Below, one piece after another: positions 13,022-46,200 of a stretch of DNA of 64,000 bases. Numbering within the stretch: position 1 is the first letter of the stretch; each line of letters opens with the position of its first letter. The notes under the pieces were generated by a model. It worked only from the letters and a program-made list of their open reading frames with translations. It was not told the DNA's origin and made no database searches. Both the position numbers and the translations under genes were made by a program. The DNA is from Chondrosia reniformis. Taxonomy: Eukaryota; Porifera; Demospongiae; Chondrillida; Chondrillidae. The DNA lies in the NCBI GenBank assembly GCA_947172415.1, contig OX359197.1:558001-622000 (forward strand). The letters run 5' to 3'.

Positions 13022-15852
<2,831 letters not shown>

Positions 15853-16645
15853 TTCAATTACTTTAGCAATTGAACTTAGTGCACATTCTTTTCTGACTTT
15901 TTTATGCATTTTGTATTAACTTGCATTATATTGCTTACTGTATAATTTAAGTACTTTAAATGAGATTGAAGGAATCCGTACTGACAAAAACATCTTGCAT
16001 GATTGATTATTCGTAATGGTCACGTAGGATGTAGTCTGATTAATGATGATACAAAACAAACCACCTACCTAATTGGTTACTACCCTAGTACATATTAATG
16101 TGTATCAAATTGTGGCTTTCATTTTCAGAACCTGAGTATATCATTTACGTCATCAGTGGACTATGGATTTACCCCACCCACCCACCCTGAGGAGCTTGAT
16201 GAGCTAATGGGTGGAACCCAAGTTCACTTAATGGGAACCAGAATCTCCTCTTTGTCACTCAAAAAGATGGGCGAACTGTAGACAGCTGCTCTGCCCTTAT
16301 TAGTATGGCATACATTGGAAATCTGGATGGCTACTCTCAGACTGCTAATTCAAAAAGCTTGTGGTTTCCTTATCAGCAGAGTCACTGAAGATAACATATG
16401 AGCTCAAGATCAGCTTTCGATCTTAAAGTAAAAATTTAAGGGTTTTTCTGTATCAATTTCGTCAGGCACCATAGCTGTGTCTATATAGAGACTGCATTGA
16501 GCGAACGTTAAAAAATTCGAGGCTTCAATTCGCGATTACGTAAGAGTATATTACATCCGCTGGGGTGATGTAAGGTTACATAATACATTCAGCTTTATTT
16601 AACTAGTAGAGTGCGAAAAAAGATCAGCAAGGCTTTACAGGCAAA
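15853..16645. other. Intergenic, likely Rab 3' UTR and next promoter
   Basis: This lies between the Rab stop and the start of the first coiled-coil gene. It contains no convincing reading frame or repeat. A short TAATG-rich, then more GC-balanced stretch near 16180-16330 has no family resemblance in any frame. Confidence 0.5.
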
Positions 16646-17513
16646 ATGAAAAGACAGTATCAGTGTCGTGGTAAGTCTATAGTTATAACAGTATGTAGTG
16701 TAGTCGTACCGCATGATACAGGTTGCCATGATACTAATTTGACTAATGTTAGAAGTCTATCAGTTGTCCTCACTAATTTTAATCGTGTATGTAGTTAGTA
16801 TTATTATAATCTACATTGTTTTTGAGGCTGAAGATCTTCGATTTTAAGCCTATAGATGGCACCTATACAGAGTATTGAAATTATTACAGAGAGTATTGAC
16901 TTAATTATAGATACAAATAGCTACTGTGCAAGTAGATAAAATATTTAAAGATGTAGTACATAAATTGAAGACACATGCATGCACGTGCATTTAAGAAATT
17001 TCTAAATAGCTTTTACCAATTTATATTTATCCGTGTATAAATACCAATTATAAATGTATTTCTCTAATGATAGATGATATTTCTGAAAACGAATCATTTA
17101 GTGGTCGGGAGAGTGATCTAGAATCGAGATCAGAAACGCAGTCGTATGCATCGTCCTCTAAAAGGTCCAATGCATCATTCAGGAGTAGAAGTTCAAGGTC
17201 TGCAAAAGAGTCGCGCTTAAAATTAGGAAAAGTCTGTGCTGTAGAAAATGTCAAGCTACGTTCTGAAGTTGCAGTTTTAAGGGAAGAAGTCAACACTTTA
17301 AGGCAACTTCTTAATGATGCTAATTCTACATTATCCATGTGGATGCAGAGTAGTGCAAGGCCACCTGCTGGTCCCTCCTACAATATGTCAGGGTTTAATC
17401 AAGGGATCCACTCTTTACCATCCAATTATACAATGTATTCAAGAACTGTCTACAATCCTGAAAACACTCAAGTACCGACTACCTATCATTATGGACCAGA
17501 TTGCCCACGATGA
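16646..17513 (+). CDS. Small coiled-coil protein, paralogue 1 of 3, function unknown
   Basis: Two exons, 16646-16670 (MKRQYQCR) and 17074-17513, joined in phase 1, give 154 residues. The N-terminal third is Ser/Glu/Arg-rich (for example SKRSNASFRSRSSRSAKESR). A conserved block follows, beginning LGKVC, with a leucine-zipper-like heptad run ENVKLRSEVAVLREEVNTL. After it comes a conserved PPAGPSYNMSG motif and a Tyr/Asn/Ser-rich tail. There is no signal peptide or membrane segment. Two paralogues lie at 22389-23012 (-) and 25659-26413 (+); this one is the most divergent. The coiled coil suggests dimerisation. I do not recognise a known family. Confidence 0.75.
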
Positions 17514-18599
17514 TAGAAAATAGCTTGCATAGACACATGTACACACTCTTGAAATTGACCACATATCACATTGTTCTTTGTTCTATTGTAATAATATGTA
17601 TATGAACAATCAAAGTGATAAGCAAACCACAAGTAATTACAGTCATAAAAAAGGTAGAAACAATATTGAAATTAGGTATTAAACATTAACTAGGTAACAA
17701 GCAACATGCATGCATGAACCCTATGGGTTTCCCTGAACATAAATATGGCTGCCTACTCTATGTAAATAGAATGTATACAAACATAGGATTGCCACAGGAA
17801 ACTATACATTCTAAAAATTATTTTACAACAATGTGTTATAACACATAACACATAACAAATTGTCCATATTTTTCAATGAATTCAGTCATACCTATAATTT
17901 TTTTTCAAATGCTAACAATGACAACAATAACAACAAAACAAAACAAGTCAATGAGTTGATATATTACTAAATGATAGATTTAAAAATGGAGTACATATAG
18001 AGTTAGTAAACTGGGTGACTTTCAGTCAATCCCAGTGTAATATTATCATTATAATTAGCTTTGATGGATCTGTTACCTCTAATACACATGAATGCTGATT
18101 TGACCAGAGAGAAAGATATCTTATAGCTCATTTGGGGGAATGTTTACAGTGTTGATGTTGGTGTTAATAAAGCTTGTCTAAATGTGCTTATGTTGTACAT
18201 CTTGTTTAGTCTCCCTTTATTTATTTATATAGAAACGTCTCCATAACAACCAAAGTCCCTGGCAACCATTCAAAGTAATCAATTGTTCATGTGGCTGCAC
18301 TTGTAGAACAAACTTCACACATGTAAGTCAAGCAGTATATCTTAGCTGATCCCAATATTGAAAAAGGCAGTTTCTCCAAAGTTATCATTACTGGATGTAT
18401 ACAAAAGAAACTAACAAACATTAATTTGTTGCATGTAAAGGTGATATGTGTTCCTATATATACTTCATGTGCATGTCCTTTTAACAGGACTTACGTATCT
18501 GTGACTTCTATTTAGGTGGAGAATTACTTTGTAGATTGCCATTGACACTTTTCTGTCCAACTGTTTCACTGTAACATTGCATGACATGTTTTGGCAGGA
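17514..18599. other. Intergenic, no gene seen
   Basis: This is the 3' flank of coiled-coil paralogue 1. AATAAA occurs at 18166-18171, a possible but distant polyadenylation signal. The sequence is otherwise AT-rich and lacks coding character in any frame. Confidence 0.5.
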
Positions 18600-19330
18600 T
18601 TTGTGTCTGAGCATTCACTAATTGAATAACAACTTCTTTGGGAATGCCTTCTTGTTATAAGTCTATAGAAAAAGTTAAAATTTATAATCCCTTAAACTAG
18701 ACACTGCATTGGAAGGTAGTCATAGCAACCTTAACTATACATTGTAGACCTTTATTTTGTAATGTTATGTGTATGTAGTTGTCAATAGGTTTAACAAGAC
18801 TGTGAAGTTTGACTGCATTGAAATACATGCATAGTTAGTGGGTTATAGACCAATTTGTAACATAAGGGATTTTACATTACATTAAGGCCTTTCATGACCT
18901 ACCAGAAAGCAAGAGGGAGGTCACTTTAATTATTTCAAGAGGCCTAGGGAGGTCATTTTTATTAATATTAATTACATTGAGTATGCAAAAAGGTAAAATG
19001 GGACTTGTACAGGAAGTGTATTAATTTATACTAGTCTTTAAAGTAAAGTATTTATGTACATGCAAACCATACCAAACACTACAGGATTGGATTAGGTGTA
19101 GGAAGACCACGAGGTGAACTATGAGTATGCACACTACACACTTGGCTCACACATCGCAAATTATTGGGGTTTTACCATGGGTATATAATACTGGTAGGCC
19201 AGCCCATACTAAAAAATATGGCTGCTTCCTGTAATACCTACACAAAATGGGAGACTAAAGATTTGAAGTTCCTAAACTTCTAAATTAATTAATTTAGAAG
19301 CAAACAGTTCCACAAGTACTACTTAGAAAT
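18600..19330 (+). repeat. Left arm of a large inverted duplication around tyrosinase
   Basis: This segment is repeated in reverse complement at about 23985-24920. Matching landmarks include the GATTGGATTAGGTGTAGGAAG block near 19086, CCAGCCCATACTAAAA near 19199, and AATTGAATAACAACTTC near 18620. The arms are clearly homologous but diverged. The right arm is longer because of an insertion near 24425-24690. The arms enclose the tyrosinase gene and coiled-coil paralogue 2. Confidence 0.85.
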
Positions 19331-19527
19331 GGTCTGCCACAAGATTATGCCAAATTCCATATATCTTCAGTAAGGATATAAGTACGTACATGTGGTAAAC
19401 AATCAAGGAAATCGGTTACCTGAATTTTGTGCATTATTACTGCCTATTACAAAGTGTTTATGATATAATAGTTGGGTATTAGCGTATATGGTATATATAC
19501 AGTATAGTCAGAGATAGAGACAAGGAG

Positions 19528-21138
19528 ATGAAGGTTAGTATTCTTCTATTGACATTCCTCTTATCTTACAAGGTTGGCAATGCCAAAGGCCAGTTCCCTT
19601 CAGTCTGTAACACTCAGGAGAACCTTGATAATAAGATATGCTGTCCAAACAACTGTAATGCTGACAGAGGAAGGGGAAACTGTACAAATATTGAAGAACT
19701 TGCCAGGAGACAATGGGGGCTGGCTAACAGAAGGATAACTACAGCTCTAACAAGCACTATTCCTAATCTGTTTGGTAAACAGGACAGCCGTGTCACTTGG
19801 CCTTCAGCTGTCTTCAGTCAAGTATGTGTATGTAATGATCCATACTTTGGCACAGATTGTGGTGAATGCGTATTTGGTAGAATGGGTGAGGAATGCAACG
19901 AAGAGAAGACGATAATAAGGCGGAGATTTACCAGTCTATCTAATGAGGAAAAACTTCGTTTTAGAGATGTCTTAATTCAATCAAGAGGTGAATCTGAGAA
20001 GCAATGGGCAGTAATCACAGATGAACCAGATGTTGGCAGTTCAGACTCAGTTACCTTGCAAAATGTTAGTACTTACAATCTATTTGTATATTTGCACTCC
20101 TTTTCAGCTCGTGAAAATAATGCAGCATGCTCCTCGACCCTCTCCATGCTGATAGATTTTGCACATGAAGGTCCTAACTTTCCAACATGGCACAGATATT
20201 TCATGTTAATTGTGGAGCGAGAGCTACAAAAGATTTCGAGAGATCCTAATTTTTCCTTACCTTATTGGGACTGGGGAGAGGAGGACGGGACTAGCATTCT
20301 AACAGATGAGTATCTAGGCAGATTTGACTTTGAAGGAGAAGTGCCCAGTGATGAATGTATTGCAAATTTGGTCATAGACGGTAGAAATTGGCTAACAGTA
20401 TGTGATACTATTATTAGAATACCAGAGGCAGATTGTGCAACACTTAGGGCTGCATGCAATGTTGAGAGAGATCTATTGAATAACAGCACATTGTGCAGAC
20501 AAGGAAGGGCTAATACTACAAGTGAACGCAGCCTTCCTGCACCATTTGAGATAGTTGAAGCACTTAAGGAAGACATTTTTAATAGTCCAGACCCTGATGG
20601 AAATTGGACTATCAAATCTACAGATTTTAGAAATAAGTTAGAAGGCTATGTGGGTATGAATTGTACTTCCGATGGCTCCAGTATAAACACTACATCTGAT
20701 CCTGTGGGTAATCTCAATGGAGCTCACAACTTCCTTCATAATCAAATTCATTTATTTATTGGAGGTCACTTGGCGGCAGTTCCTGCCTCTAGTAATGATC
20801 CCATTTTCTTTTTGCATCATGTCAATGTCGACAGGCTTCTTGAGATTTGGCTAAGATTGTACTACCTAAATGCTTCTCAGAACACTTACCAGCCTATATC
20901 AGGGGCACACCCAGGACATAATCGTGATGACTGGCTTGTTCCATTTCTACCCTTGGCTACCAACAGTGACATGTACAACAGATCAAGTGCTTTTGGCTAT
21001 GAGTACGATAGCCTGCAAATACCGCAACCAAGAACCTGTGGACGACGACAAGAAGCTACCACACCAAGAAAAATTCCTCTAATTGTGCCCATATTGCTAT
21101 TAATTGCTGTCATATTCTTTATTATTTACTGTAGGTGA
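19528..21138 (+). CDS. Tyrosinase, membrane-anchored, intronless
   Basis: Type-3 copper monooxygenase that hydroxylates phenols and oxidises catechols to quinones (melanin or cuticle-type chemistry). The 536-residue frame is uninterrupted. A signal peptide is followed by the Cys-rich N-terminal region typical of vertebrate-type tyrosinases (ICCPNNCNADRGRGNC, then CVCNDPYFGTDCGEC, EGF-like). CuA ligands are inferred as His190, His213 and His222 in YLH / FAHEGPNF / WHRYF. CuB ligands are His400 and His404 (HNFLH) and His431 in the NDPIFFLHH motif. The spacing matches the family. A C-terminal hydrophobic helix (about 514-534) anchors the protein, with the catalytic part lumenal or extracellular. 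A TATA-like GTATATATAC lies at 19491-19500, close to the ATG. AATAAA at 21517-21522 is a possible polyadenylation signal. Lack of introns contrasts with most of its neighbours. Confidence 0.95.
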   Translation: MKVSILLLTFLLSYKVGNAKGQFPSVCNTQENLDNKICCPNNCNADRGRGNCTNIEELARRQWGLANRRITTALTSTIPNLFGKQDSRVTWPSAVFSQVCVCNDPYFGTDCGECVFGRMGEECNEEKTIIRRRFTSLSNEEKLRFRDVLIQSRGESEKQWAVITDEPDVGSSDSVTLQNVSTYNLFVYLHSFSARENNAACSSTLSMLIDFAHEGPNFPTWHRYFMLIVERELQKISRDPNFSLPYWDWGEEDGTSILTDEYLGRFDFEGEVPSDECIANLVIDGRNWLTVCDTIIRIPEADCATLRAACNVERDLLNNSTLCRQGRANTTSERSLPAPFEIVEALKEDIFNSPDPDGNWTIKSTDFRNKLEGYVGMNCTSDGSSINTTSDPVGNLNGAHNFLHNQIHLFIGGHLAAVPASSNDPIFFLHHVNVDRLLEIWLRLYYLNASQNTYQPISGAHPGHNRDDWLVPFLPLATNSDMYNRSSAFGYEYDSLQIPQPRTCGRRQEATTPRKIPLIVPILLLIAVIFFIIYCR

Positions 21139-22388
21139 GATCTTTAGTTAATTTGCTTTAAAAGTTAGAAAATTTCATGCAATATTAGCTTAATTTACTC
21201 TTAGAAGCTGATAACTCTAGATCTTAATTTGGCTGTGTGTGGTTTACACTGATTAATATATATGCTATAACAATGCTTACATGAATGTTTACTTTTAATG
21301 TATTATGATTATAGTGTAAAGGAAAGATCAAAAGTGTAAAACAATATTTTTCATGCAAAATTGAAGAAAACTGACGATCCTATATAGCTGTAGAGAAGAT
21401 TACATATATATATCATGCACTTTTGTTACAGGAGCCCAAAGATCAAGCTATAGCTGCTATACATATATACACCTAAGACACATTTATATGTACATTTGTC
21501 TACCTTGATATATTTTAATAAATAATTGAAGTGATAATCAAGCCACAAATAATTATTCTCAAACATCCATAAAGCATATACTACATGCCAGGGATTCACA
21601 AAAGATCAAGAAGAAGAACGAAGGGTGGAACAATCTAGAACACCATATTTCAAAAATTTATGGTTTACTTAATTCCATGCATGATCTAGGGTATGATTGC
21701 ATTTCATGCACTACCAACTCTTATTCAAATATCAGATTTTTATGGGTTTCAGTCACTTCCCTATGTATTGCATATATGTATGTATTTACTTCCTGTATTG
21801 CATATATATATGTATGTATTTACTTCCTGTATTGCATAATAATGTGTAGGAAAATTATAGATGCACGCACCTATTGTGACACACTGTTATATAATAATTT
21901 TTATAATGCATGCATATACATGGCCTCATGGTTCCTAATATAAGTAGTATCAGATGCCATACTATCTAAGTATTAAAAATACAATTTATATATGGACTAA
22001 TATATAGGTATATAATATGTGCTCTAAATTGCATTAATGGTATATACATGCATGGCTCAGATTGTAAATCAATTTTTTCATATAAGTTTACACTAGCATT
22101 GAAAGAGAGCCAAAGCTTTACATATATATACATGGCCACCCATGCATGCCTTACTTACCAGATCTGTACGTATTTGATTGCTATATATAGCTTTAGTCAC
22201 AAATAAGTTTGCTTACTGCATTATTTGTGTACAGAAAATACATCAAATATACCACCTTAATATTCTTCGACAAGTTAAACTATTGCCTATTATCAATTTG
22301 AAAATATATAAATTTCTTGCAAAAAAGTTGTTGTTTTTCTATATAGAACAAAGGATATGCACATGCTCCTTTGCTTAAAGTTTGAACT
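21139..22388. other. Intergenic, no gene seen
   Basis: AT-rich sequence between convergent tyrosinase and coiled-coil paralogue 2. It includes a tandem CTTCCTGTATTGCATA repeat near 21790-21840 and, at 21592-21640, a short match (GGATTCACAAAAGATCAAGA) to the dispersed repeat at 57054. The reading frames here are short and unconserved. Confidence 0.5.
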
Positions 22389-23012
22389 CTAATATTGACG
22401 GTTATAATTTTGATAGGAACTTGATTCTTGCATGTTTGCTGAATTGCAATCAACACATGGATTTGAGTCAGGATAGGCTATATAAGATTGAATTCCTCCA
22501 TTATCTCCTGACATGTTGTAGGAGGGACCAGCAGGTGGTCCTGCATATGCAGTACTGCTCCATGTGGACAATGTGGCATTTGTATCACTGAGGAGTTGCC
22601 TCAAAGTTTCAACTTCCGCTTTTAAAACTGCCACTTCAGAACGTAATTTGATATTTTCTTCTGAACATACCTTTCCCAATTGTGAAACTGATTCTCTGTA
22701 GCCTTTGGGAGATTTTTTATACGATGAAGTCAATAGCTGGGATGACGGCTTTGAAAATATACTAGAATATTGATCGGTAACTGATTCATTCATTGTGTCT
22801 TCATCTATAAATGTATAAAACGCATTACGTGTATGCTGACAGCACCTATAATATACGAGCTGTGCAGGTGGCCTAATGTTCAGATTGTATCGATACATAC
22901 ATGCACGATCGGACAAATTGCAAAACTAGCAGTGGTTAGCTGGTCCTTTCTCCTTACATGCTTCTCTTTCACGTGTACGACTACTATTCTTTCTTTGTTC
23001 TTCTTTGTCCAT
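22389..23012 (-). CDS. Small coiled-coil protein, paralogue 2 of 3, with GC splice donor
   Basis: Exons on the minus strand are 23012-22931 (MDKEEQRKNSSRTRERE...) and 22804-22389, giving 165 residues in phase 1. The second exon is nearly the same as in paralogue 3: SSIFSKPSSQLLTSSYKK, LGKVCSEENIKLRSEVAVLK and PPAGPSYNMSG. The donor after CACT reads GCTAGT instead of GTAAGT (the paralogue 3 donor). It must therefore be a rare GC-AG intron or a splice-dead copy; without splicing the frame stops two codons later. The exon frames are intact, which argues for function or recent inactivation. Located convergent to tyrosinase inside the inverted duplication. Confidence 0.7.
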
Positions 23013-23408
23013 TACAGCCGGTTATGTAATGGATTACTAGGTCTATATAGGCTTGTGGTATACCTAATAGGCTTATTTATAACTCAAAGATAACCACAAG
23101 TGTCGCTATACGTTGCGTACTTTATACGGAAATGAAGTGGGAGAGGCCTATGAGCAAACAAACTACTTTACTAGCTATATAGCTAAACAATAATAATTTG
23201 AGACAACCCCGCATTCGAATTACTTGGTCAATTTAAGGAATATATATAGTAGTAATCTTAACGATTTCTACCCTCATACATCCTCAAAATCATTAAGAAC
23301 GGCAAAAAACTTAAGGTTACCGAACGACGCCATTTGCAATTACGTATAAATGAAGTTTTATGCATATAACTTAGCTCTACCTGTCCATATAATTCCATAG
23401 AAGGGAGT

Positions 23409-23471
23409 GATTAGGTGCATTTAGAGTCGTAAGTTTAACTCCTCAAACTGACTCTAAATGCACCTAATCAT
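23409..23471. repeat. Perfect 21-bp inverted repeat
   Basis: TGATTAGGTGCATTTAGAGTC at 23409-23429 is repeated exactly inverted at 23451-23471, with 21 bp between. This may be a minimal foldback or MITE end pair. Upstream of coiled-coil paralogue 2. Confidence 0.85.
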
Positions 23472-23984
23472 GTAACTCAAGAAAGAGATGAATCTAGACC
23501 ATCCTAGACCTTCTTACCACTTTACTTCACCAAAGACCAACTCCTGAAGCTACTTACGTTATAAACAAACTCATCATAGAACTTGAAACTACCTCTTCAG
23601 AACCAAGCCTTCTTAAGTTTAACAAAGGTTTACCACATTCTATACCATCAAGTCTGAAGTTGATGATCACAGCCTTAATAATACAAGACACTACGGCCCA
23701 TTCCCTAAACCTTATATAGTGGAAGAGTGTTTTGTTCTTTCTGTAGAAAAGAGCTGAAGGAGGCCCAGAGAAAATGGCTGGCCTGTAACAGATCAGATCC
23801 AGCTAGACTACATTTATGGCAAATATTCGGAATGCTTTTGACACCCTGCATGGTCAGACATAAAAGTAGAATGTATCAAAATGGACCATTTTAGCATGGG
23901 CAATTCACAGAAATTTTGGAAAATTACTTGTACCCAGGAAAAAACATCACATGAAGATAATGAAATTTAGTAAAATCATTTCTA
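23472..23984. other. Unassigned sequence
   Basis: Less AT-biased than its surroundings, with CCTTCTTACCACTTTAC-type C-rich text that might be a decayed coding sequence. I found no frame with family resemblance over a useful length. Confidence 0.4.
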
Positions 23985-24920
23985 AGTAGTACTTGTGGAA
24001 CTGTTTGCTTTTAATTTATTAAGAAATTTAGGAACTCCGGGACTGGATCCAAATCTTTAGTCTCCCATTTTATGTATAGGTATTACAGGAAGCAGCCATA
24101 TTTTTTTAGTATGGGCTGGCATATACCCATGGTAAAACCCCAATATTTTTGTGATGTGTGAGCCAAGTGTGTAGTGTGCACACTCATAGTTCACCTCGTG
24201 GTCTTCCTACACCTAATCCAATCCTGTAGTGTTTGGTATGGTTTGCATGTACATAAATACTTTACTTTAAAGACTAGTATAAATTAATACACTTCCTGTA
24301 CTAAAATGACCTCCCTCTTGCTTTCTGGTAGGTCATGAAAGGCCTTAATGTAATGTAAAATCCATTATGTAACAAAATGGTCTATAACCAACTAGCCATG
24401 CATGTGCTTACATGTATATTTCACAGGTTTAAATTTCAGGTTTCACATAGCATGAAACCTACGTGTTTGAAATTTCTTGAACAGCCAGGTTTCAAAGGGT
24501 GCTCAAGTGTGTGCTTATAGATTAATTTCACGGGTATCAAATTTTAACAGCCCCCTTTCTGGTTTTATACATGTTTTCATACCTTTTGAAACCTGGCTGT
24601 TTAAAGAGTTTCAAATAGGTTTCATGCCTTCTGAAACCTGCATGACATTTGATCCTGTGTTTCAAACATCATGGTCTTGCTGACCTATTGACAAGTATAT
24701 ACATACACGTAACAAATGATAATAATTTATTACAAAATAAAGGTATATACAGTGTATATAGTGTAGTAAGTTAAGGTTGCTATGACTATATATATACCTT
24801 CCCATGCAGTGTCTTAGTTTAAGGGATTATAAATTTTAAGTTTTTCTAAACTAATAACAAGGCATTGATTGTAACCCCCAAAATGTTGTTATTCAATTAG
24901 TGCATGCTCATGCAGACACA
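23985..24920 (-). repeat. Right arm of the inverted duplication around tyrosinase
   Basis: Reverse-complement counterpart of 18600-19330. The match is interrupted by about 250-300 bp (24425-24690) rich in AGGTTTCA / TGAAACCT motifs, including an inverted pair AACAGCCAGGTTTCAAA / TTTTGAAACCTGGCTGT (24480-24600). That insert looks like a foldback element inserted into this arm after duplication. Confidence 0.85.
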
Positions 24921-25658
24921 AAACTGATCTATAGGATATAGAGAACCTGCGAACCTCCTCCAACTGAACTAGCAATATGCTGAACTATATGCATGGTAGC
25001 TAGGAGTTATTAGTTACTAGATCTCCATGCAATACTTTTTTAAATATCTTTTCCCCACCTGAGTGAGTTAACCCAATAACATAATGATTCCCCATGCACC
25101 ACTCAGTCCTTCAACTTTCTTAATTGGACATGTTGCTAGGTAATGTCAATTTCCATGACAATTCTTCTGTATACAGCAAATAAAGTATATAGGCTAGTAT
25201 ATAGACAACCATGCAAATTGTACTTGGAGTACAACTTAGCTAAATTTTGAACAGTTTCACAAGTATTCTTAAAAGTAAAGATGCTAATCAAAACATTGTA
25301 ACTTAAAAGCTAATTATAGACTCCGGCTTAAAGCGGCGCTGTATGTATAGTTTGTCTGATTTCTAAACAAGATAATATAACCTACGAATCAGTGTATATA
25401 TGCAACTGCAATTGAGCTCCAGTAGCAACGAATTCACTAATTGATTGAGCAATAGAATAATTGAACTTAAACTATAAACCAAAAGACAATATGCCACTTC
25501 TAACGTACTTTCTTAAATTGGGTGGCCATGTTTTTTCGGTCGTATACCAAAAAAATTTGCCACTCGTAACATTTCTGCATCGGACCACTTTCAAAATGCT
25601 TCCTATGCGCCCCTGTAAACCGCAAGCTTACTAATCATTACATAACCACCAGACTAGT
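24921..25658. other. Intergenic, upstream of coiled-coil paralogue 3
   Basis: AT-rich, with no coding signal or clear repeat. It presumably contains the promoter for the gene starting at 25659. No TATA box could be chosen with confidence. Confidence 0.4.
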
Positions 25659-26413
25659 ATGGAGAGAGAAGGACAAAAAAAGAATACTCGTCTTGGGAAA
25701 GTAGCCTGCAAAGAGACAAGATCAAGCGACCACTGTAAGTTTAGCAGCAAATATATTGCTTTGTATAGATTGTATCAATTTAATGCTTATAAAATATATT
25801 TCTAGGAACATGTATATATATGCCTGCATGTATACAGCACCAGGTTATAGCTAATATACGTACCCGAACATGCATGTATTTTCTGATTCTTTACCTCCAT
25901 TCGAATTTAATATATAAGCACAGAATGCATGGACCCTATACATCTACAGATCTAAAGACTCTGTATTATGTCTATATAGGTGAAGATATGTATGAAAATA
26001 ATTCAGTTACTGATCAAAAAAGGAATGATCAATATTCTAGTATATTTTCAAAGCCGTCATCCCAGCTATTGACTTCATCGTATAAAAAATCTCCCAAAGG
26101 CTACAGAGAATCAGTTTCACGATTAGGAAAGGTCTGTTCAGAAGAAAATATCAAATTACGTTCTGAAGTGGCAGTTTTAAAAGCTGAAGTTGAAACTTTG
26201 AGACAACTCCTCAGTGATACAAATGCCACATTGTCCACATGGAGCAGTACTGCATATGCAGGACCACCTGCTGGTCCCTCCTACAAGATGTCAGGAGATA
26301 ATGGAGGAATTCAGTCTTATATCACCAATTATGACTCAAATCCACGAGTTGATTGCAATTCAGCAAACATGCAAGAATCAAGTTCCTATCAAAATTTTAA
26401 CTGTCAATATTAG
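25659..26413 (+). CDS. Small coiled-coil protein, paralogue 3 of 3, function unknown
   Basis: Exons 25659-25734 (MEREGQKKNTRLGKVACK...) and 25980-26413 join in phase 1 to give 169 residues. The donor is a canonical GTAAGT and the acceptor TATATAG. The second exon carries SSIFSKPSSQLLTSSYKK, the coiled-coil run ENIKLRSEVAVLKAEVETL, a PPAGPSYKMSG motif and a Ser/Tyr/Asn-rich tail ending NFNCQY. It is closest to paralogue 2. No targeting signals. An in-frame extension upstream of 25980 is intron read-through. The function is not known to me. Confidence 0.77.
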
Positions 26414-26999
26414 ATAGCAAATTAGACTTTAAGTGAAGAAATATGCATCTATATGATTATCCAATTTTGCAAAAAGGAATATTTTCTATTTATAATTTTT
26501 TACATCTAACTCGAAAGCAAAGAAGTATTATTTACTGATATGTGCAACTAGATATATTATTTATATGGCTGTTTAATATTCAAAAATATCTATAGATTTG
26601 ACAAGATACGTAATGCTTGCATGGATGCTGCATGTACTGAAATGTATATGGATGCAGCTTTGACTTATATACATGCATTCTTTTTTCACCATCATGATCA
26701 TGCATGTATGTGTACTTGCAAAAATATTATGAGTCTGCATGGCTTTAAATATATACCATTCGTTCAATTACAAACACACATTGAATGAATTTTATTAGTG
26801 CTAATAATTTGAAACCATGAATCTAATTAAATATGCTCATATTCATGCATTATAAAAACTATTATACAATATTGTGTCATAATGTGCGCGTGCATGGTTT
26901 TCCTACGTGTTATATATACAATAGGAACTAATCTATAGCTAGTCTGTCTAGTAACAAGTATATATATTGCTGACCTTGCATGAGTTAACTGTGTATATA
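26414..26999. other. Intergenic, no gene seen
   Basis: AT-rich sequence with many TGCATG motifs, between coiled-coil paralogue 3 and the LINE. No supported feature. Confidence 0.5.
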
Positions 27000-29744
27000 T
27001 ATAATAAATAAGAGTAAGAAGCATAAGGTTGTGATTAATAGACTTAAGTATAGACAGAAAGTAGTTACAAGTAAGAATGAAGTAATAAAATGTCTAGTTA
27101 GCCATTTTAAGGATACACTTATTATGATAGTGGTAGTCAGGAAATGGGTCTGTTAAAAAATATAATATCCTCCCTGAACACCAAGAGATAGCACCAGACA
27201 TTTTGGATAGGAAAATAAGTCTCCTAGAGGTACAGCAAGCAGTATATTCCCTTAAATCATATAAATCCTTCGGACATGATGGGGTACCTGGAGAAGCTTT
27301 ACAAAATAATTTAACGATTCGATTTTTGGCGGCTTTTTTCGATCTATGTTTGGAAAAATCACTTAGTCCATTAGAATGGAGAAAGAGTATAATTATTCCT
27401 ATTCCTAAAAGTAACAATTGTATAGAAACTAATAATCTTAGAGGCATTTCCCTAGTATCGGTAGTGTATAAAGTATACTGTTCAATTCTTAATCATAGGC
27501 TAACTGAGTGGCTTCAATTAACTAATTCATTAAATGAAGTACAAAGTGGTTTTCGACCCGGTAGGTCCTGTATGGACAATATTTTTACTCTTACTAATGT
27601 GATACACAGTAAATTGTTGGATGGAAAGGAGTGCTTTGTGGCTTTTATTGACTTAAGGAAAGCTTTTGACTCGGTAGACAGAAGACTGCTATGGCAGAAG
27701 TTGCTGGGAATTGGCATCTCTGGTAAAATGACTAGTATATTGAGAAACTTATATGAAGAGACATCATGTTGTATCAAGATAGACAATGATAAAAGTGACT
27801 TCTTCCCTGTAAATCAGGGGGTAAAGCAAGGTTGCATCTTGTCTCCTCTGTTATTTAATCTTTTTATAGATGATTTATGTAATGACTTGCAATCTGATCT
27901 TGGAATTCAGCTAGGGGAGTTTCTATTCAATTGTTTATTATATGCTGACGATTTGGCCTTAATGGCCGATAATGAAAAAGCACTGCAGATTCTCCTACAA
28001 AGGGTAGGAGACTGGTGCAATAAGAATTTATTGAATATTAATAATCAAAAGTCAGCAATTGTACATTTTAGAAATAAGAAGGCTCCAATTTGCAATTTTC
28101 AGTTTTCCATGAATGGAAAGCCAATTAGAATTCAAAATGAGTACAAGTACCTTGGGGTAGTCATTGATGAACATCTTGATTTTGACAAGATGGGCAATAT
28201 GAATCTTGAGAAAGCCAAAAGAGCATTTAATACAATTAAACAGGAATGGTACAGGAATGGAGAAATGAGTCCAATCATATTCAAGAAGGTTATATCCACT
28301 TGCATATTTCCAATTTTTGATTATGGCTGTCCCCAATGGAGCATGTTTGTAATGAGATTAACTAAGGAGGCTTTAAACCTCAAGATTGCAAGATTTTTCT
28401 TGGGAGTGTCTAGATTACACCCCATACCTGCCCTAGAAAATAATATGGGCTGGAGGAGTGCCTCAGAAAGACAATTAGTACAAGCAGTACTATTTTTTAG
28501 AAAGGTATCCATCATGGAATCAAACAGATTGTGTTATATGATACTACAATATATGAAGAGGAAAAATAACCCCAGAAGTTGGTGGGGTAAGATGAAAGAT
28601 AAATTATCTGAATTGAGTATACCTGTTGATTATTTATTAAATCACCAATTCAATGAAGTCAAGTATGTTATCAATCAGAAAGTGATGGTACAAGAGCAAC
28701 AAAGATGGACCAATGAGGTGCAGAAAAAGCCTAAGCTCAATTTTTATCAAAAAATGTTTGGTTTCAGATCCCTCCCCATAGCTGATCAGATTAATTTGAG
28801 ACAGGTTCGCAGTTTTTTGTGTAACCTAATAGGTGGCACTTTGCCAATCAGGGAAGAAACTGGGAGATTCTCTAATGAGGCTAGAGAAGACAGATGGTGC
28901 AGAATTTGTAGTAATTTCTCAGAGATTGAGGACACTATCCATTTCCTAGCAATTTGTCCCCAACTGTCTGATAGTAGGCAAGCGATCCTGAGGTGCCTGC
29001 AGTGGGATGGCACTTCCTTTTCATCCAGCAAACACCTAGCCGTGTGCTTGGCTGCAGCTGGTGTGTCGGATGAGTCAGTGGCTATGCGGTTAAGGGCGTT
29101 TTATAAAGTAAGGTGCGATATAGGAGAATGAGGATATAATACTTAAATTGGTTTAATACAAGCTCCCTCCAGTACCATGGTGACATGAATATAGATAGGT
29201 AGGCATGCAGTAATTTTAATATATGCATATCATTTATGATGACTCTTTAAAGTAATTTATTGATGAATTGATGCATGAGACTACTACATGCAATAGGGTA
29301 ATTCAAGATAAGAGGTTAGACTGTTATACATTTAGAATTTAGGTAGGTGTACACGTAGATGATCCTCTGGGTATTAGTTTATTTTATTTGTATTGTACTC
29401 TTATCTGTATACACAATGACCTGTATCCTCAGCAGACCCATTTAGGCTTGAGAACATTGGAGTGTTGATAGTACCTTACTATATGGTGTCAATTTTCCGA
29501 TAAATGTGTCAGATATATATATTACAGTCATCAATAGAGACCCAAGTCCATATGCATGCAATTGCAAGAAATCAAGGAAGAGATATAGTAATATTGATTG
29601 AAACTCTTTAGATGTAGCTTCGATTCTGATCTGTGTTATGGTATTTTAACTGACCCTTGTATTTTATATTTTATAGTGACTCATGGGCCCAGTCTGGCCT
29701 AGTGCATACATCATATTTTGATTTGCACGTGTCACTCTAATAAA

Positions 29745-39200: not shown

Positions 39201-41543
39201 ACAAAAAGATTTGAGGCAAAACTTCCTCTTTAGACACTCAAAGAATTGAAAGATGTACCACTTCAAAAGACCATTCATCACAGTTAGAAGGTATCCCTAC
39301 TTCATTAGGTATCTGTATGTGACTGTTTCAGCATCAACTCACCACCATGGCGACCACCAGGAACACCATTCCCACGTAAGCAAAGTAGGCAAGGTACTTG
39401 AAGGAGGGAAGGAATGTTATGAGTATAAGGATGGGAATGAGGTAGGCATAGACCTCTGGCAGGGTGATAGTTGCCTTGGAACCAACTGTAAACACTGGTA
39501 AACAAGACATAGCCCACTGTGCGTATACAGAGGAGAAGACAAACAAGAACATTAATTGTTATAAGATACCCAAGAGTTATGTGATACTGTACATATAATT
39601 AATATACAATCTATTATATTACTTCAATATTTCCCTATAGAACATACAATTGTTCCTTACCCCTCCCCACTTCTACCCTCTCTCAGCCTTGCCCCTCCCC
39701 TTCCTACTCCTCCTCAGCCCCTCCCCCTTCCTACTCCTCCTCAGCCCCTCCCCCTTCCAACCCCTCCCTCAGCCCCTCCCCCTTCCTACTCCTCCTCAGC
39801 CCCTCCCCCTTCCTACTCCTCCTCAGCCCCTCCCCTTCCTACTCCTCCCTCAGCCCCTCCCCCTTCCAACTCCTCCCTCAGCCCCTCCCCCTTCCTACTC
39901 CTCCTCAGCCCCTCCCCCTTCCAACTCCTCCCTCAGCCCCTCCCCCTTCCTACTCCTCCTCAGCCCCTCCCCTTCCTACTCCTCCCTCAGCCCCTCCCCC
40001 TTCCTACTCCTCCCTCAGCCCCTCCCCTTCCAACTCCTCCTCAGCCCCTCCCCTTCCAACTCCTCCCTCAGCCCCTCCCCTTCCAACTCCTCCCTCAGCC
40101 CCTACCCCTTCCAACTCCTCCCTCAGCCCCTCCCCTTCCAACTCCTCCTCAGCCCCTCCCCCTTCCAACTCCTCCCTCAGCCCCTCCCCCTTCCAACTCC
40201 TCCCTCAGCCCCTCCCCCTTCCAACTCCTCCCTCAGCCCCTACCCCTTCCAACTCCTCCCTCTCAACATATCAACCCAGATGCTAACCTGAAGATTGGAA
40301 GCTATAAATACAATATATCCAGCACATACTCCAACGTTACAGAGTATAACTGAGAAATCAACACTCCACTTTCCAATAACTCCACCTGCAGACCGCCCCA
40401 CGTCAGTAAATGTAAAGTTCCTCTTCTCCTCTGGACTTAGGTTCTTGGTAGCGTACTGCTTACACTGCAGGATCAGGTGCATCGTGTAGGCACTGAAAAA
40501 CACAAAAATGTGAAGAACTTCTACATAGCTGCGTACGTTCTTTCATTTTGAGTTTATTCAGAACTACCTAACCATCTTGTTAACAGATTTCAAACAGTTT
40601 GACCCAACCCAGGGTCTTAATCAGTGAAAGTAGACTCTAATTTCAGTAATGAAGCAATGGTCATTTTATGATATTACAAGCATACGAATAGACTACATTA
40701 GGACATTTAGTCTGAGACGTGCATATAATCTAATTCTAAACTGGTTTGGATTGAGATGATGAAATCGTTCATAAAAATAGACTACATTAACACATTTAGT
40801 CTGAGACATATATATATATACGTAATCTAATTCTAAACTGGTTTGGATTTAGATGATGAAATCACTCATAAAAATGGCGAGCAGTTACATGATGAAATAT
40901 ATATTTTAAACACAAAGATGACGAAATTTGGCTAACTGTGTGGTATGCCAATAAGATGATGCAACTAAAGCATGCCATGTGTACCTGATTATCCCCAGGA
41001 GTACCAGACCGGCAGATCCTACAATAAGACCACTTTGAGCCAGCGCCCATGGAAGGGCAAATGAACCAGACCCAATTGAGGCTTTAGCAAAGTTGAAGAA
41101 AGTTGCAATCTCACTATAAACACAAACAATTCAATAAAAAGAAAGATAAAAAAGCCATTTTACACAGCCGCACTATTACCTTATCTAACAAAAGACGTAC
41201 ATATATTTAACTGAGAGTGATAAAACGAGGCTTAAAATTACCAACAAGTTAAATAATTATATTTAGGTTGAATCAAGATTTATTGGAATCAACTATAGGA
41301 TCACGTATAATAGATTTTAGGAATATAGAATATATCAACACCGTCATATGGCCATTCTTATAAGCTATCAACTCAAGCAAGACGCTCCAAACACCATCCT
41401 ACCCTTGACAAGCCGCAACCACCAGATAAGATAGCCTAAACTCACTTTGATCCACTCCATTTCTTCTTCTGCTCGTAAGAATGGAGGGTAAACGAATCAG
41501 AGCTGTTGGACACTTTTGAGGAGAGCAACCTTTTATCAGACAT
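36274..41543 (-). CDS. AAAP (Aa_trans) amino-acid transporter, SLC36-like, paralogue 2
   Basis: Nine exons on the minus strand: 41543-41446, 41113-40985, 40492-40288, 39516-39343, 38784-38629, 38157-37976, 37658-37559, 37079-37038, 36663-36274. They close exactly to 491 residues. Every intron phase matches paralogue 1, and exons 2, 3, 4, 6 and 7 have identical lengths. Motifs: FNFAKASIGSGSFALPWALAQSG, NVGVCAGYIVFIASNLQ, FLPSFKYLAYFAYVGM, FLFCVHTMVVPLESSM, LFPDIVRLTLAFEL. The N-tail (MSDKRLLSSKVSNSSDSF...) is only 33 residues and unrelated to that of paralogue 1. The start codon sits 26 bp from a perfect GTCACGTGAC palindrome. The gene is divergent from SRCR receptor copy 1, and its first exon is duplicated at 48538-48635. 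One intron contains a G-rich minisatellite on the transcribed sense strand. Confidence 0.92.
36771..36995 (+). repeat. Dispersed 57.1-kb repeat, nearly full copy
   Basis: Collinear with 57054-57293 from GGATTCACAAAAGATCAA through AAGGGTGGAATTCCCAGAAAC to the ATAGCATGCAGGAAAATGG end. The hammerhead-like core at 36828-36854 is changed at its start (CATGATGA instead of CTGATGA). It lies between the last two exons of transporter 2. Confidence 0.8.
39655..40265. repeat. Pyrimidine/G-rich minisatellite in transporter 2 intron
   Basis: More than 20 imperfect 23-28-bp units of the type CCCCTCCCCCTTCCAACTCC. On the transporter's sense (minus) strand this reads as repeated GGGGGAGGGGCTGAGGGAGGAG, so the pre-mRNA would be strongly G-rich. 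It begins about 20 bp downstream of the donor at 40287. The Pro/Ser/Leu-rich open frame on the plus strand is an artefact of the repeat. Confidence 0.95.
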
Positions 41544-41814
41544 CACCTACCTACCTACCTAAACCTGAGTCACGTGACGGGATAATCAAGGATACGCTTG
41601 GCTTATATGGCCTTCGTTCTACTAGTCTGACGAAATTAGACCTTTCATTACAAGTGGCGATGATTTATACGTGTCCAGGTATAGCCCTGTGCCCCTTAAA
41701 CAGTATTATTGGTTGGTATTTATCTTCACATTAACTTATATGCATAGGCACGTTTAATAATCGTAATAATCATAATATAAGTGGTTATTTCGCAATTTCC
41801 TGTTGCTGATTTCA
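41544..41814. promoter_or_regulatory. Divergent promoter of transporter 2 and SRCR receptor 1 (interrupted)
   Basis: A perfect E-box palindrome GTCACGTGAC at 41569-41578 lies 26 bp from the transporter start codon, preceded by a TACC tetranucleotide run. The same region is duplicated at 48636-48969, where only 334 bp separate the two start codons. Here the interval has been interrupted by 1.4 kb of retroelement sequence (41815-43228). Bidirectional use is inferred from the head-to-head layout. Confidence 0.6.
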
Positions 41815-43228
41815 CAAATAACAATAATATATATAATAGCTGCAATAGCTGCCACAAAGGTCTGAGACCCCAGTGCAGCCCCTAGATGTCTCTGCCCTTC
41901 TCTGGTAATCTGCACATCAGTACCTTGAAACAGTTCAGCAGCCCGGGCTGTATGTTCCTCCTTGACAATGAGCCAAGACTTTGTGGCATTCGCATGATAA
42001 CCAAAGTCTGGTCCAATCTCCTCCATTTTATCCCACCAATGTTTAAGCTGATGGAGTTGGCCACCGGCAGAGGCATCATCAGCGAACCAGACTTGCTTTA
42101 CCTGACTCAACTTGCCCAGTTTGTGGATGAGAGGTATAGTGGCAATGGCATACATTGCCACTATACCTCTCATGGCATACATTGCCATTGCCATTGCCAG
42201 GGGATCACCCTGAGTCGTACCCTCTCTGGAGTAAATAACTTCTCCGTCAACAAACAGCTGGGCATCAGCACAGTACGTATTCACTATTGTAGAGGCAATT
42301 GACGGGCAAAGATGCAAGACGTTCTGAAGGGCAACTTGTCTGTTCAGGGAGTTGAAGGCGTTCGTTGCATCTACCAGCAGTACTGCCTCACTGTTGGCAT
42401 CCTGAAAAATGTGTCTCAATGCATGGACAGCTGCTTCACTCCCTCCATGTTGCCCTGCACATACTTGCAATGCTCCCATCACCTCTTGGACTTGTGGGCC
42501 TGCAGCAGCCAACACTGCTTTGCCGATAATCCTTCTGACCACTTCGCCAATCCCTATTGGTCTAACCCCAGGACAATTTGTCTAGGGCCACTAGTCTACA
42601 GGCAGTGAAGGCATCCAGGCCGGTGGGATCCACAAATTGCTGGCAGATGCGACGTGCTACCATAGCCACTGCTTCACACAGATCAGCCGACTCCTTTCTA
42701 AATGATGACAGAAGGCGCCTCCAACCAGCAGCATCCATTCCTGATGGCCCTGCAGCCCCGTTGTTTCTTAGGGCAATATGATGTATTAGAGGGCCATTGA
42801 TCTGTTCATATAGGATAGGATGGGGAGTCTTGGTGGAATATTCTTCATTTGTAACTACAGATATCTTGAAGGATTGTGCTTCCGGATGCTTTTCCATCAA
42901 TACCTCCCGAACAGTCCTACTTTCACCAGCACCACCTGGGACACAACTGTTTAGGCTCAGTCTCCCTCCTCTGCTGTGATCGCCCAGAAGTCGAATGGCC
43001 GTTTGAACATTGCCCATGAACATGAGGTTGGCAAAGGAACGTGCTACCTGTGCATCGGACCTTTCTCTGGAGAGATCATTCGGGAGTTGGTTCAGTATAG
43101 TGCACCCTTCATGAAGAAGGGCATCGATATCTCCATGTTTCCACGATGTCAGCCTGCGCTGTAGGCATATGGAATGCTCCTTTGTTTTGGCAGATCTATG
43201 TGGCTTCTGAAGTAGTGAGGCAGGCAAT
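41815..43228 (-). pseudogene. Reverse transcriptase fragment inserted in divergent promoter
   Basis: Minus-strand coding in two frames. 43227-42562 carries the N-terminal part (LLQKPHRSAKTKEHSICLQRR, then GPSGMDAAGWRRLL, CRLVALDKL). After a frameshift near 42550, 42542-41815 carries the catalytic part (LLVDATNAFNSLNRQVAL, GTTQGDPLAMAM, VWFADDASAGG). The FADD box replaces the usual YADD. Elements of this type recur in invertebrate genomes; I could not assign the clade. Comparison with 48838-48965 shows that the fragment replaced about 60 bp of the ancestral promoter. Both ends are truncated and no tail or terminal repeat is visible. An inverted duplication within the RT domain is described separately. 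Confidence 0.85.
42129..42171. repeat. Perfect 19-bp hairpin inside the RT fragment
   Basis: GAGAGGTATAGTGGCAATG at 42129-42147 and its exact inverse at 42153-42171 are separated by five bases. The inserted arm adds an extra peptide (MYAMRGIVA) between MAMA and MYAIATIPL in the reverse-transcriptase frame without breaking it. It looks like a templated inversion or local duplication. Confidence 0.85.
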
Positions 43229-43237
43229 GCTCTAGTT

Positions 43238-46200
43238 ATGGTGCTGGTACCAGAATTGACTCTTTTGTTGCTTTCAGGCTTAATTCAAGGTGGGACAGGT
43301 ATTTTATAACAATTAATAGTTATTATTAATTGTATCCTTGAATATTTAGTAGTTTACAGTCAGAACGTTCGATTGGTTGATGGAAGGAACTCATTCGAAG
43401 GACGAGTGGAGGTCTTCTCCGGCGGCAGATGGCAAGCAGTGTGTGATGATGGATGGGACCTTAATGACGCTAATACTGTGTGCGCAGAATTAAATTATGG
43501 TTATGCCATTTCAGCGGTTACGGGCTCTGGTTTTGGTGATGGAAATGACAGAGAGACCATTCGATACAACTGTGGCTCATTTGACGACGAATTGTCCGAT
43601 TGTCCGACAACGACTCTTTCCTCTTGTTCAAACAGTGTTGGTGTTATCTGCTCTAATATCGGTTAGCTAACAAGTATTGGTGTGTATGAATAGACACGCT
43701 TTTTGTGTGAGGCAATGCCACAAGTTATGAGAAATGCACACAGTAGTACAATTATGTACAGTACATGGTGCAATACATTGGCATGAAAATAAGATTATAT
43801 GTCCTACTGTGTGTATATAAACATTGTTCTTAGAGAAATTCCTTTCTAGATATCATTATACGTCTCAAGTGTATACTTCTGTTGATGTGTTAAGTACTGG
43901 AATGGTATAGATATATGCATACTTTATAGGTATATTATTGGGCAATAGTTTGATGTTTTTTGATAATTATATTAATACAATACAACATTTCAGTTCTTCT
44001 TATATTGATATTTGTATGAGCAATCAAGAGCACCATATTTCAATATATATGACTATGATGCCTATGAAGTAATGTACGTATGTACGTATCTTTCAGTTGT
44101 AATATTAAGGATAAATTTGTTCATCTGTACTGCATTATCATGTTACATTATACATGTTTTAGTTTTTAAAGATGGCTCCCTCAGATTAGCTGACAGTGGG
44201 CCATCCATCACAGGCGGACGTCTGGAGATACACAAGGATGGGTCCTGGGGAACTATCTGTGACCTGGGGTGGGACTCCAATGATGCGCTGGTGGCTTGCA
44301 AGCAGCTCGGCTTTGCCAATGTTGAAGCAGAACAGAGTGAATCATTTCCAACTGGTTCTGGTAGTATTCTCCTAACTAGTGTAAGATGTAATGGAGACGA
44401 AGCAAGCATCATTTCTTGTCCAAACAGTGGATTTGGAAATACACAAGGATGTTCACATTCACAAGATGTTAGAATAATTTGTTCAAGTATGTCTGCATTC
44501 AAATCAGTGAAAAGTAATAATATCAGAGAGTACGGTAGTACTCTCTATGTAGCGATGGTACTGGTTGTTTCGTTTTCTCCATACATTGATATAGGAACGA
44601 AATTCCGAAATAGGCTGAAAATTCATGTTTATTTAAAATTTATGTTAGGAGACATATGCATGTTACACAGTGAAGCATTAGCTATATATGCATTGAATCA
44701 TACAACACCCTTTCTTGTTTCTGTGCTTTTTGTGCCATCCCTACATCCTCACTATTTTTGTAGAAAATTTTTATTCTCTTATTTATATACAGTGGGATCT
44801 CAATATAACGAAATCGCTTATAGTGAATGTCTCAGTATAGTGAAGTACTATACAATAAACTTTCTTTATAACAAATTGGTTTATAGTGAATTTCTCACTA
44901 TAAGGAGGTATTTCTAAGTCCCCGCTGATTTATTTATAGATTTATAACAATTTACACTACAGACACAATAACTAAAGGAGTAACTCACCTTTTCTTAAGG
45001 CAAGAGGTGTTAATTGAGTGAAACCCTACATTTAGGTAATTATACTGTTAACCAGGTGAAGAAGCTGCTCCACAGAAGGAACAAGGGAACTTTTGGGGTC
45101 CTAGGGCTTCACTATAATGAGATTCCACTGTATGTACACATTACTACACGACCGATAATGATTCCCCTTATTCCTGTAAAGTCAACATTGACTGCATAAG
45201 AAACCCAACTTTAAGCATAGGAATGACCGTATAGTATTAGTATTAGAAAGGGGAGGGTTTTGATGCATTCTAAACAATCAATAGTGTTATATATATATGT
45301 GTAGGTGTATGTATAAATGAAAGGTTTTGATACATTCTACAATCATTAAAATGTTATACCCCACAGTGCAGGAGTATATAGCATAGTATACAACATAAAA
45401 TAACAGCAAACAAAAAAAACAGAGAGAAACAATAATAAACAACACAAATTAAGACACCTCAGGTGTCTTATGTTTGGCCTTGTCAGCGCACCTTCCACTC
45501 GCTACGCGATCCTCGCTCTCTGTATCTTCCCGTGCTTCAGAATCGCCCCTGCCTCCGACTTCGTTCACGCTCCGATCCTCGCTTGCACTTCGCTCTTCTT
45601 CCATACGTCTGACGTGGTCCTCTTCGTCGTTTTCGTCGCTCGCACATCGGTCTTCCGGGACAGTTGGCAACTATGTATTTCCTTCCGCAAGGGACATCAT
45701 ATAACATACGTATAGGCCTTGCATGGCCTTTTATGTCCTTGCGTACAAGTTACAAAATGGTCTCTAACCCTGTTGATTATGCGACATATACATGCAACCG
45801 ACCGTCGGTATTCTTAGCTCCCTCACAATGCAGCTGTGGTTATTAGCAGAGACCCCTTTAAGATGTTGATATATGGCATGCAGATGCATCATCTTCAGTC
45901 TATAATAAGGTGTGAAAAGGTAATTGGTAGGCCATGTGTTCTATATAGCTTGCAATTGGATGATCTGTATCAACTACTATTCTCTATGCAGTAGTTGAGG
46001 ATTTCAAAGCCTGCAACTATACGTACTATTTAAAATAGTGATTATCCTAGGGATCACTTGGATTTCTAACTTGCACTGTGTAGCTAGTACTTGATTGTAA
46101 CTTTAATATATATAGATGGAAGATCATTTGAAGTTGAAATTCGAGCAGTCAATGAACAAGGAGCAGCAAGAGACATTGATACTGCAAGCCTCACTGTTGA

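Follow-up and report, generated by a model that had tools for sequence, protein, structure and literature searches.

Three small genes around a tyrosinase of the sponge Chondrosia reniformis as candidate zipper-only antagonists derived from a PAR/NFIL3-type bZIP gene

What do three small coiled-coil genes clustered around a tyrosinase on chromosome 9 of Chondrosia reniformis encode, and from what did they arise? The genes, henceforth referred to as copies 1, 2 and 3, lie in a 64,000-nucleotide stretch (C9:558001-622000, the window) of a genome of 117,379,552 bases in 15 contigs. An earlier note had described them as an unrecognised family associated with the tyrosinase. The odChoReni1.1 assembly is reported in PMC12181767 to comprise 14 chromosomes and a mitochondrion, with chromosome 9 at 7.70 Mb and chromosome 2 at 10.29 Mb; C9, which carries the copies, contains 7,702,672 bases, and C2, which carries their closest relative (L004), contains 10,288,994. 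The copies are read here as probable zipper-only antagonists of a PAR bZIP transcription factor, derived from an L004-like gene, with a probability of roughly 0.58.

Each copy was predicted as a two-exon gene with a phase-1 intron (3/3), in agreement with the earlier note; introns and splice sites were read off the sequence of the one genome. The predicted proteins contain 154 (copy 1, + strand), 156 (copy 2, - strand) and 169 (copy 3, + strand) amino acids. Gene order is copy 1, tyrosinase, copy 2, copy 3 on strands +, +, - and +, and the tyrosinase, a single open frame, is indeed flanked on both sides in mixed orientation. The shared coiled coil (a leucine zipper) and the motif PPAGPSY(N/K)MSG were likewise recovered by alignment, with K in copy 3. 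Copy 2 has no GT at the donor place of copy 3 and contains another phase-1 GT donor within exon 1; use of an alternative GC donor would yield 165 instead of 156 amino acids. A supposed repeat of RLGKV in exons 1 and 2 of copy 3 was dropped, given that exon 1 of copy 2 is devoid of RLGKV. The features of the copies, in window positions, are as follows.

16646..16670, + strand: copy 1 exon 1, 25 nt, phase-1 donor GTAAGT, splice sites inferred
17074..17513, + strand: copy 1 exon 2, with a Ser/Arg-rich possible basic-region relic, leucine zipper, PPAGPSYNMSG and tail
17235..17342, + strand: copy 1 leucine zipper, heptad offsets -7 to +28, coordinates derived by hand
17361..17393, + strand: copy 1 PPAGPSYNMSG motif
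22958..23012, - strand: copy 2 exon 1, 55 nt, GT donor; GC donor after 22931 as alternative
22389..22804, - strand: copy 2 exon 2
22560..22667, - strand: copy 2 leucine zipper, coordinates derived by hand
22506..22538, - strand: copy 2 PPAGPSYNMSG motif
25659..25734, + strand: copy 3 exon 1, 76 nt, phase 1
25980..26413, + strand: copy 3 exon 2
26135..26242, + strand: copy 3 leucine zipper, in a single AlphaFold2 helix beginning after Pro38 (exon-2 numbering)
26264..26296, + strand: copy 3 PPAGPSYKMSG motif

Part of copy 3 (E ≤ 1) and copy 1 (E ≤ 10), used as genome queries, each returned copies 1–3 and one further place, L004 on chromosome 2. The searches were run exon by exon with the best candidates scored, a procedure that a bZIP split within its zipper could escape. 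L004 is a bZIP gene encoding 218 amino acids (bZIP_2, E 9.4e-13), with a 133-nt exon 1, a phase-1 intron and the entire bZIP in exon 2; the zippers of the copies also lie in exon 2. The basic region of L004, KKDDKYWERRKRNNLAAKRSRETKR, was identical to NFIL3 at 7/7 of the base-contacting residues given in PMC10941009 (R80, N83, N84, A86, A87, S90 and R91), double Asn included, and its best PDB sequence matches were C/EBP beta and NFIL3. Judged by these residues and PDB matches, L004 is classified as a PAR/NFIL3-type bZIP, a class assignment that does not tell PAR from PAR-L (PMC4736632).

Searches from the copies to L004 and back gave E values of 1.3e-6 to 6.5e-10. A genome search with the bZIP of L004 returned the copies next, at 7.7e-10, 5.7e-7 and 6.3e-7, ahead of all other bZIPs, the first of which was a C/EBP-like place on C14 at 8.0e-5. 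The genome contained 19 bZIP_2 rows, of which the 12 above the curated cut-off were scored for the zipper and the 7 below it were set aside. Against the L004 zipper the copies scored 108–112; none of the other 11 of the 12 bZIPs gave more than 51. Shuffles of the L004 zipper that preserved heptad class reached maxima of 75, 75 and 80, and none of 20,000 per copy equalled or exceeded the observed score. The stretch common to the copies and L004, EN-x-x-L-x-S-E-V-x-V-L-x-x-E-V-x-x-L-R-x-L-L-x-D-x-N-x-T-L-x-x-W, goes past a generic coiled coil. These comparisons show the zipper of the copies to be homologous to that of L004, which the copies match far above both the other bZIPs and the shuffles. 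The coiled coil is thus a PAR/NFIL3-type bZIP zipper, and the copies themselves probably descend from an L004-like gene. The earlier description as an unrecognised family therefore stands in part: no Pfam family matched the copies above its curated cut-off, and the ancestry of the coiled coil can nevertheless be named. A known Pfam family was rejected, the only matches being of coiled-coil type and below cut-off (e.g. TBCC_N, Rabaptin, Cnn_1N). Bacterial or viral origin was also discarded; scans of genome contigs and viral contigs produced 72 and 43 pattern hits, respectively, and not one was confirmed.

The residues expected to form the dimer interface were retained. Leu occupies position d at three heptads, and position a carries Asn, Val, Val and Leu as in L004 in 3/3 copies. 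At positions a, d, e and g (offsets -4 to +28) each copy was identical to L004 at 17 of 19 residues, compared with 3–4 of 14 at b, c and f (Fisher p 1.6e-4 to 6.4e-4). Nine other bZIPs, taken as a control, shared with L004 5–8 of the 19 interface positions (or of a smaller number in rows that end early) and 0–2 of the others (p 0.013 to 0.24); near-identity of the interface to L004 is thus not usual among bZIPs. L017 and L021, in which the exon ends inside the zipper, were excluded from this control, from the charge counts and from the trees. The charge count over the four g-e' junctions was 6 for copy-L004, copy-copy and L004-L004 pairs alike, and the best values of the copies with the other nine bZIPs were 4 (L020) and 3 (the C/EBP-like L013). 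These counts therefore predict that the copies form heterodimers with L004 as easily as homodimers; the predicted separation of L004 from L020 and L013 as partners is less clear.

The equal counts for homodimers and L004 heterodimers would also suit adaptors that work outside transcription, with a self-associating zipper and with the motif and the Tyr/Asn/Ser-rich tail binding another partner. The presence of PPAGPSY(N/K)MSG within the same constrained block as the zipper, and a tail unlike that of L004, fit such adaptors. Against this, the PAR zipper's Glu at g, Lys/Arg at e and Asn at a are all retained, so that a copy made in the same cell as L004 could scarcely fail to pair with it, and D-boxes upstream of the copies hint at PAR control. 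An adaptor role is regarded as possible though unlikely.

The DNA-reading residues upstream of the zipper were lost. The signature N-x2-A-A-x2-(S/C)-R, tested at fixed spacing to the zipper, was found at 5/5 residues in L004, 1/5 in copy 1 and 0/5 in copies 2 and 3. Both Pro and Gly occur in the former basic region of copies 2 and 3; that of copy 1 has no Pro. AlphaFold2 modelling of copy 3 exon 2 from a four-row alignment (mean pLDDT 63.1, pTM 0.34) yielded one helix, residues 39–92, that starts right after Pro38 and includes 40 residues with pLDDT of at least 90. The basic region is accordingly read as decayed in all copies, which formally are not bZIP factors, and copy 1 is a possible intermediate with a trace of it.

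That trace bears on a further explanation, in which the copies act as activators or retargeters like CHOP: their heterodimers with PAR, C/EBP-like or other bZIPs would bind altered sites, and the tail would activate or repress. A gapped protein alignment places 4/7 contact residues in copy 1 (N84, A86, S90 and R91, with one-residue gaps), and its Ser/Arg-rich stretch has a net charge of +6 compared with +7 in L004. CHOP itself provides a precedent (PMC5712004), and L020 and L013 are available as second- and third-best charge partners. Set against this are the loss of the signature in the zipper register in every copy and, for copies 2 and 3, 0/7 contact residues in a stretch interrupted by Pro and Gly; retargeting is considered quite unlikely.

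Under the antagonist reading, the copies would have arisen from an L004-like PAR/NFIL3-type bZIP gene, retaining its leucine zipper while the DNA-reading basic region was lost. Each copy would be expressed, reach the nucleus and form parallel-zipper dimers, both with the PAR bZIP and with itself, by the same a/d/e/g code. The heterodimer would be left with at most one working DNA-contacting arm, and the copies would thereby inhibit D-box genes, acting on the PAR bZIP as naturally occurring dominant-negative antagonists with a CHOP-like or Id-like logic.

Selection was assessed from the ratio of nonsynonymous to synonymous substitution rates (dN/dS, NG86 method, bootstrap ranges in parentheses). 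Over the zipper and PPAGPSY(N/K)MSG, the ratio was 0.07 (0–0.33) for copies 2-3, 0.27 (0.11–0.50) for copies 1-3 and 0.20 (0.08–0.39) for copies 1-2. Tails gave 0.68 (2-3), 0.71 (1-3) and 1.26 (1-2), and the N-terminal parts 1.52 (2-3), 0.24 (1-3, where dS of 2.7 is saturated) and no value (1-2). Whole-gene ratios were 0.42 (0.23–0.64) for copies 1-3 and 0.40 (0.22–0.65) for copies 1-2. Constraint is focused on the zipper and the motif, and the tails are loose. Relaxed codon evolution across all copies, which the earlier note had named together with lack of transcripts as grounds for giving up the family, was not seen in the core, the ratio there being low in all three pairs.

These values also address whether the copies are merely decaying duplicates of a bZIP gene. 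The whole-gene ratio of copies 2 and 3 is near 1, copy 2 lacks the GT donor used by copy 3, and neutral simulations that omitted indels, run at 0.055 changes per site, left 4,399 of 20,000 frames open. Survival of the frame over the youngest divergence is thus no evidence by itself. At 0.5 changes per site, even with indels omitted, only 17 of 20,000 frames remained open, and all three frames are open in the genome; with the zipper and motif constrained in every pair, pseudogenes are judged very improbable.

The history of copies 2 and 3 was read from one further feature.

26027..26414, + strand: exon-2 tract, gene-conversion candidate, with 96% identity to 22775-22388 of the opposite strand and running up to the stop codon

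The two copies had been called nearly identical, which is true of 388 bp in exon 2 (96%) and of neither introns, flanks nor exon 1. Introns and flanks were near background, and exon 1 matched at about 64 of 90 aligned bases. A recent whole-gene duplication was rejected, since flanks and introns align at background only, and the related proposal that duplication is continuing is not supported: with similarity confined to exon 2, gene conversion between older inverted neighbours fits these alignments better than fresh gene duplication. Duplication of exon 2 alone is an alternative that the data allow. An inverted non-coding repeat pair (18600-19335 and 23977-24922) has a centre of symmetry different from that of the exon-2 pair. 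It gives no evidence for duplication of the genes as a unit, because it consists largely of dispersed repeats (43 genome matches listed, the locus itself included).

Several results weigh against the antagonist reading. No Pfam bZIP model was listed for copies 1–3 at E ≤ 1, and a PDB profile search with the copies placed a NEMO coiled-coil construct first (E 0.0013), followed by ATF-2 (0.0045) and the PAR protein VBP (0.062). Trees of 40 zipper columns grouped the copies with L004 apart from the rest with weak bootstrap values of 55 and 62, and were given no weight. An interface-over-rest bias is usual for bZIPs and is alone no proof of partner choice, and the retained zippers may be used in homodimers alone. 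Upstream of the zipper, copy 1 resembles the basic region modestly (137 of 10,000 composition shuffles as high), and copies 2 and 3 have no detectable resemblance to it (about 6,600 of 10,000 as high). The whole-gene dN/dS of copies 2-3, 0.82 (0.43–1.60), fits neutrality. CHOP, moreover, is reported to activate in some settings (PMC5712004).

D-box-like sites upstream of the copies were first noticed by eye and then counted with three patterns, the motif having been picked after the data were seen. The sites next to the copies are as follows.

16536..16543, no strand assigned: D-box TTACGTAA, 110 bp upstream of the copy 1 ATG
16576..16583, no strand assigned: D-box TTACATAA/TTATGTAA, 70 bp upstream of the copy 1 ATG
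23022..23029, no strand assigned: D-box, 17 bp upstream of the copy 2 ATG
25638..25645, no strand assigned: D-box, 21 bp upstream of the copy 3 ATG

TTACGTAA and TTATGTAA are described as sites of NFIL3 and DBP/E4BP4 (PMC10941009, PMC6687812). TTAYGTAA was present within 110 bp of the start codon in 3/3 copies (-110 and -70, -17, -21); outside the three genes there were 10 other sites (2.25% of 150-bp windows). Dinucleotide shuffles of the 150-bp upstream stretches equalled or exceeded the observed count in 1, 194 and 101 of 5,000 for copies 1, 2 and 3. Across the window, the three patterns were mildly enriched, at 17 versus 9.3 expected (3/100 shuffles), 10 versus 4.3 (1/100) and 7 versus 3.0 (6/100). 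The position of these sites near the starts is only suggestive of feedback or PAR control. Arguing against D-box regulation, the sites at -17 and -21 may fall within the 5' leader, the D-boxes of copies 2 and 3 are not independent given their shared ancestry, and no D-box was found in the 982 bp examined upstream of L004.

PAR-type bZIPs are linked to light and clock responses, in which the repressors E4BP4 (mouse) and VRILLE (fly) supply delayed negative feedback. A similar brake in the sponge light/clock response, in which the PAR bZIP would switch on the copies via D-boxes and their products would titrate the PAR bZIP, is a doubtful extension of the antagonist reading.

The neighbourhood of the copies raised the separate question of the tyrosinase, which was not judged part of the system.

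19531..21138, + strand: tyrosinase, one open frame, PF00264 E 9.2e-39, neighbour

The earlier note had suggested an association between this enzyme and the coiled-coil proteins, for which proximity and nothing else speaks. Among 10 tyrosinase matches in the genome at E ≤ 0.01, only 1 has zipper genes beside it, and a tyrosinase partnership was rejected on this count. By eye, the zipper proteins lack a signal peptide, in contrast to the tyrosinase, which looks secretory and membrane-anchored. The zipper is derived, by the comparison above, from a transcription factor, and no D-box was present within 500 bp upstream of the tyrosinase. The association did not hold up, and a role of the copies as scaffold partners of the enzyme is extremely improbable. 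Five of the ten matches lie on C7 at 4.846-4.879 Mb, where they form a tyrosinase cluster (C7:4846401-4878534); four of the five have long open frames and the fifth is broken by stops.

Other features were observed in the window. A Ras-family exon lies upstream of copy 1 at 15442-15849 (+; PF00071 E 8.3e-18). Reverse-transcriptase open frames (PF00078) were found at 27137-29131 (+; E 3.5e-43), 41757-42581 (-; 7.2e-8) and 55418-56845 (+; E 6.6e-6, below the curated cut-off). SRCR-domain (PF00530) open frames, all on the + strand, occupy 44009-44914, 49749-50324 and 60494-61078; the first two look very similar by eye, with about 5.7 kb between their starts. A Pro/Ser/Leu-rich tandem repeat at 39565-40353, with three frames open at once, is probably a repeat and not a gene.

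The copies were compared with known systems. With the PAR/NFIL3 bZIPs (L004; NFIL3, TEF/VBP, HLF and DBP) they share, as judged against L004, EN-x-x-L, Glu at three g positions, Lys/Arg at three e positions, Asn/Val/Val/Leu at position a and a phase-1 intron ahead of the zipper exon; they differ by the decayed basic region, the absence of a PAR-type KDDKYW stretch ahead of it and a different tail with PPAGPSY(N/K)MSG. CHOP (DDIT3, C/EBP zeta) is a bZIP relative that, like the copies, is missing key DNA contacts but retains the zipper. Its basic region contains Gly109 and Pro112 (PMC5712004), and without N83, N84 and R91 its DNA binding is reported as undetectable while it still forms a dimer (PMC10941009). 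CHOP is, however, a C/EBP member, whereas the copies come from the PAR type, and in copy 1 Pro is missing from that region. The LITTLE ZIPPER (ZPR) microProteins of plants are small zipper proteins whose target is a larger transcription factor with a zipper (PMC5381583), the logic also proposed for the copies; they belong with HD-ZIP III, whereas the copies are bZIP-derived and longer (154–169 amino acids). No relation of the zipper to HD-ZIP III was found, its nearest genome relative being the PAR-type bZIP. Id proteins dimerise with and inactivate a larger relative and are similar in size to the copies (ID4, 161 amino acids; PMC5381583), the difference being that Id is HLH. A microProtein as defined by miPFinder has at most 140 amino acids and an ancestor of at least 250 (PMC5381583); the copies, at 154, 156 and 169, are larger and L004, at 218, is smaller, and the copies do have a single interaction domain in common with a larger relative.

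Natural antagonists with a dimerisation domain and no DNA binding are described for HLH (Id), C/EBP (CHOP) and HD-ZIP III (LITTLE ZIPPER) factors (PMC5381583, PMC5712004). No description of such zipper-only proteins in sponges was found in the open-licence literature, which is no proof of their absence from print. If the reading is true, the PAR bZIPs would add an independent origin of such antagonists, in an early-branching animal. In Aplysina aerophoba, PAR-bZIP and cry2 are reported as the sole circadian genes with a clear day pattern, and Amphimedon is cited there as similar (PMC12879404). A built-in PAR-bZIP brake, if true, would bear on how a clock with few known parts oscillates, and could be a missing part of a minimal animal clock.

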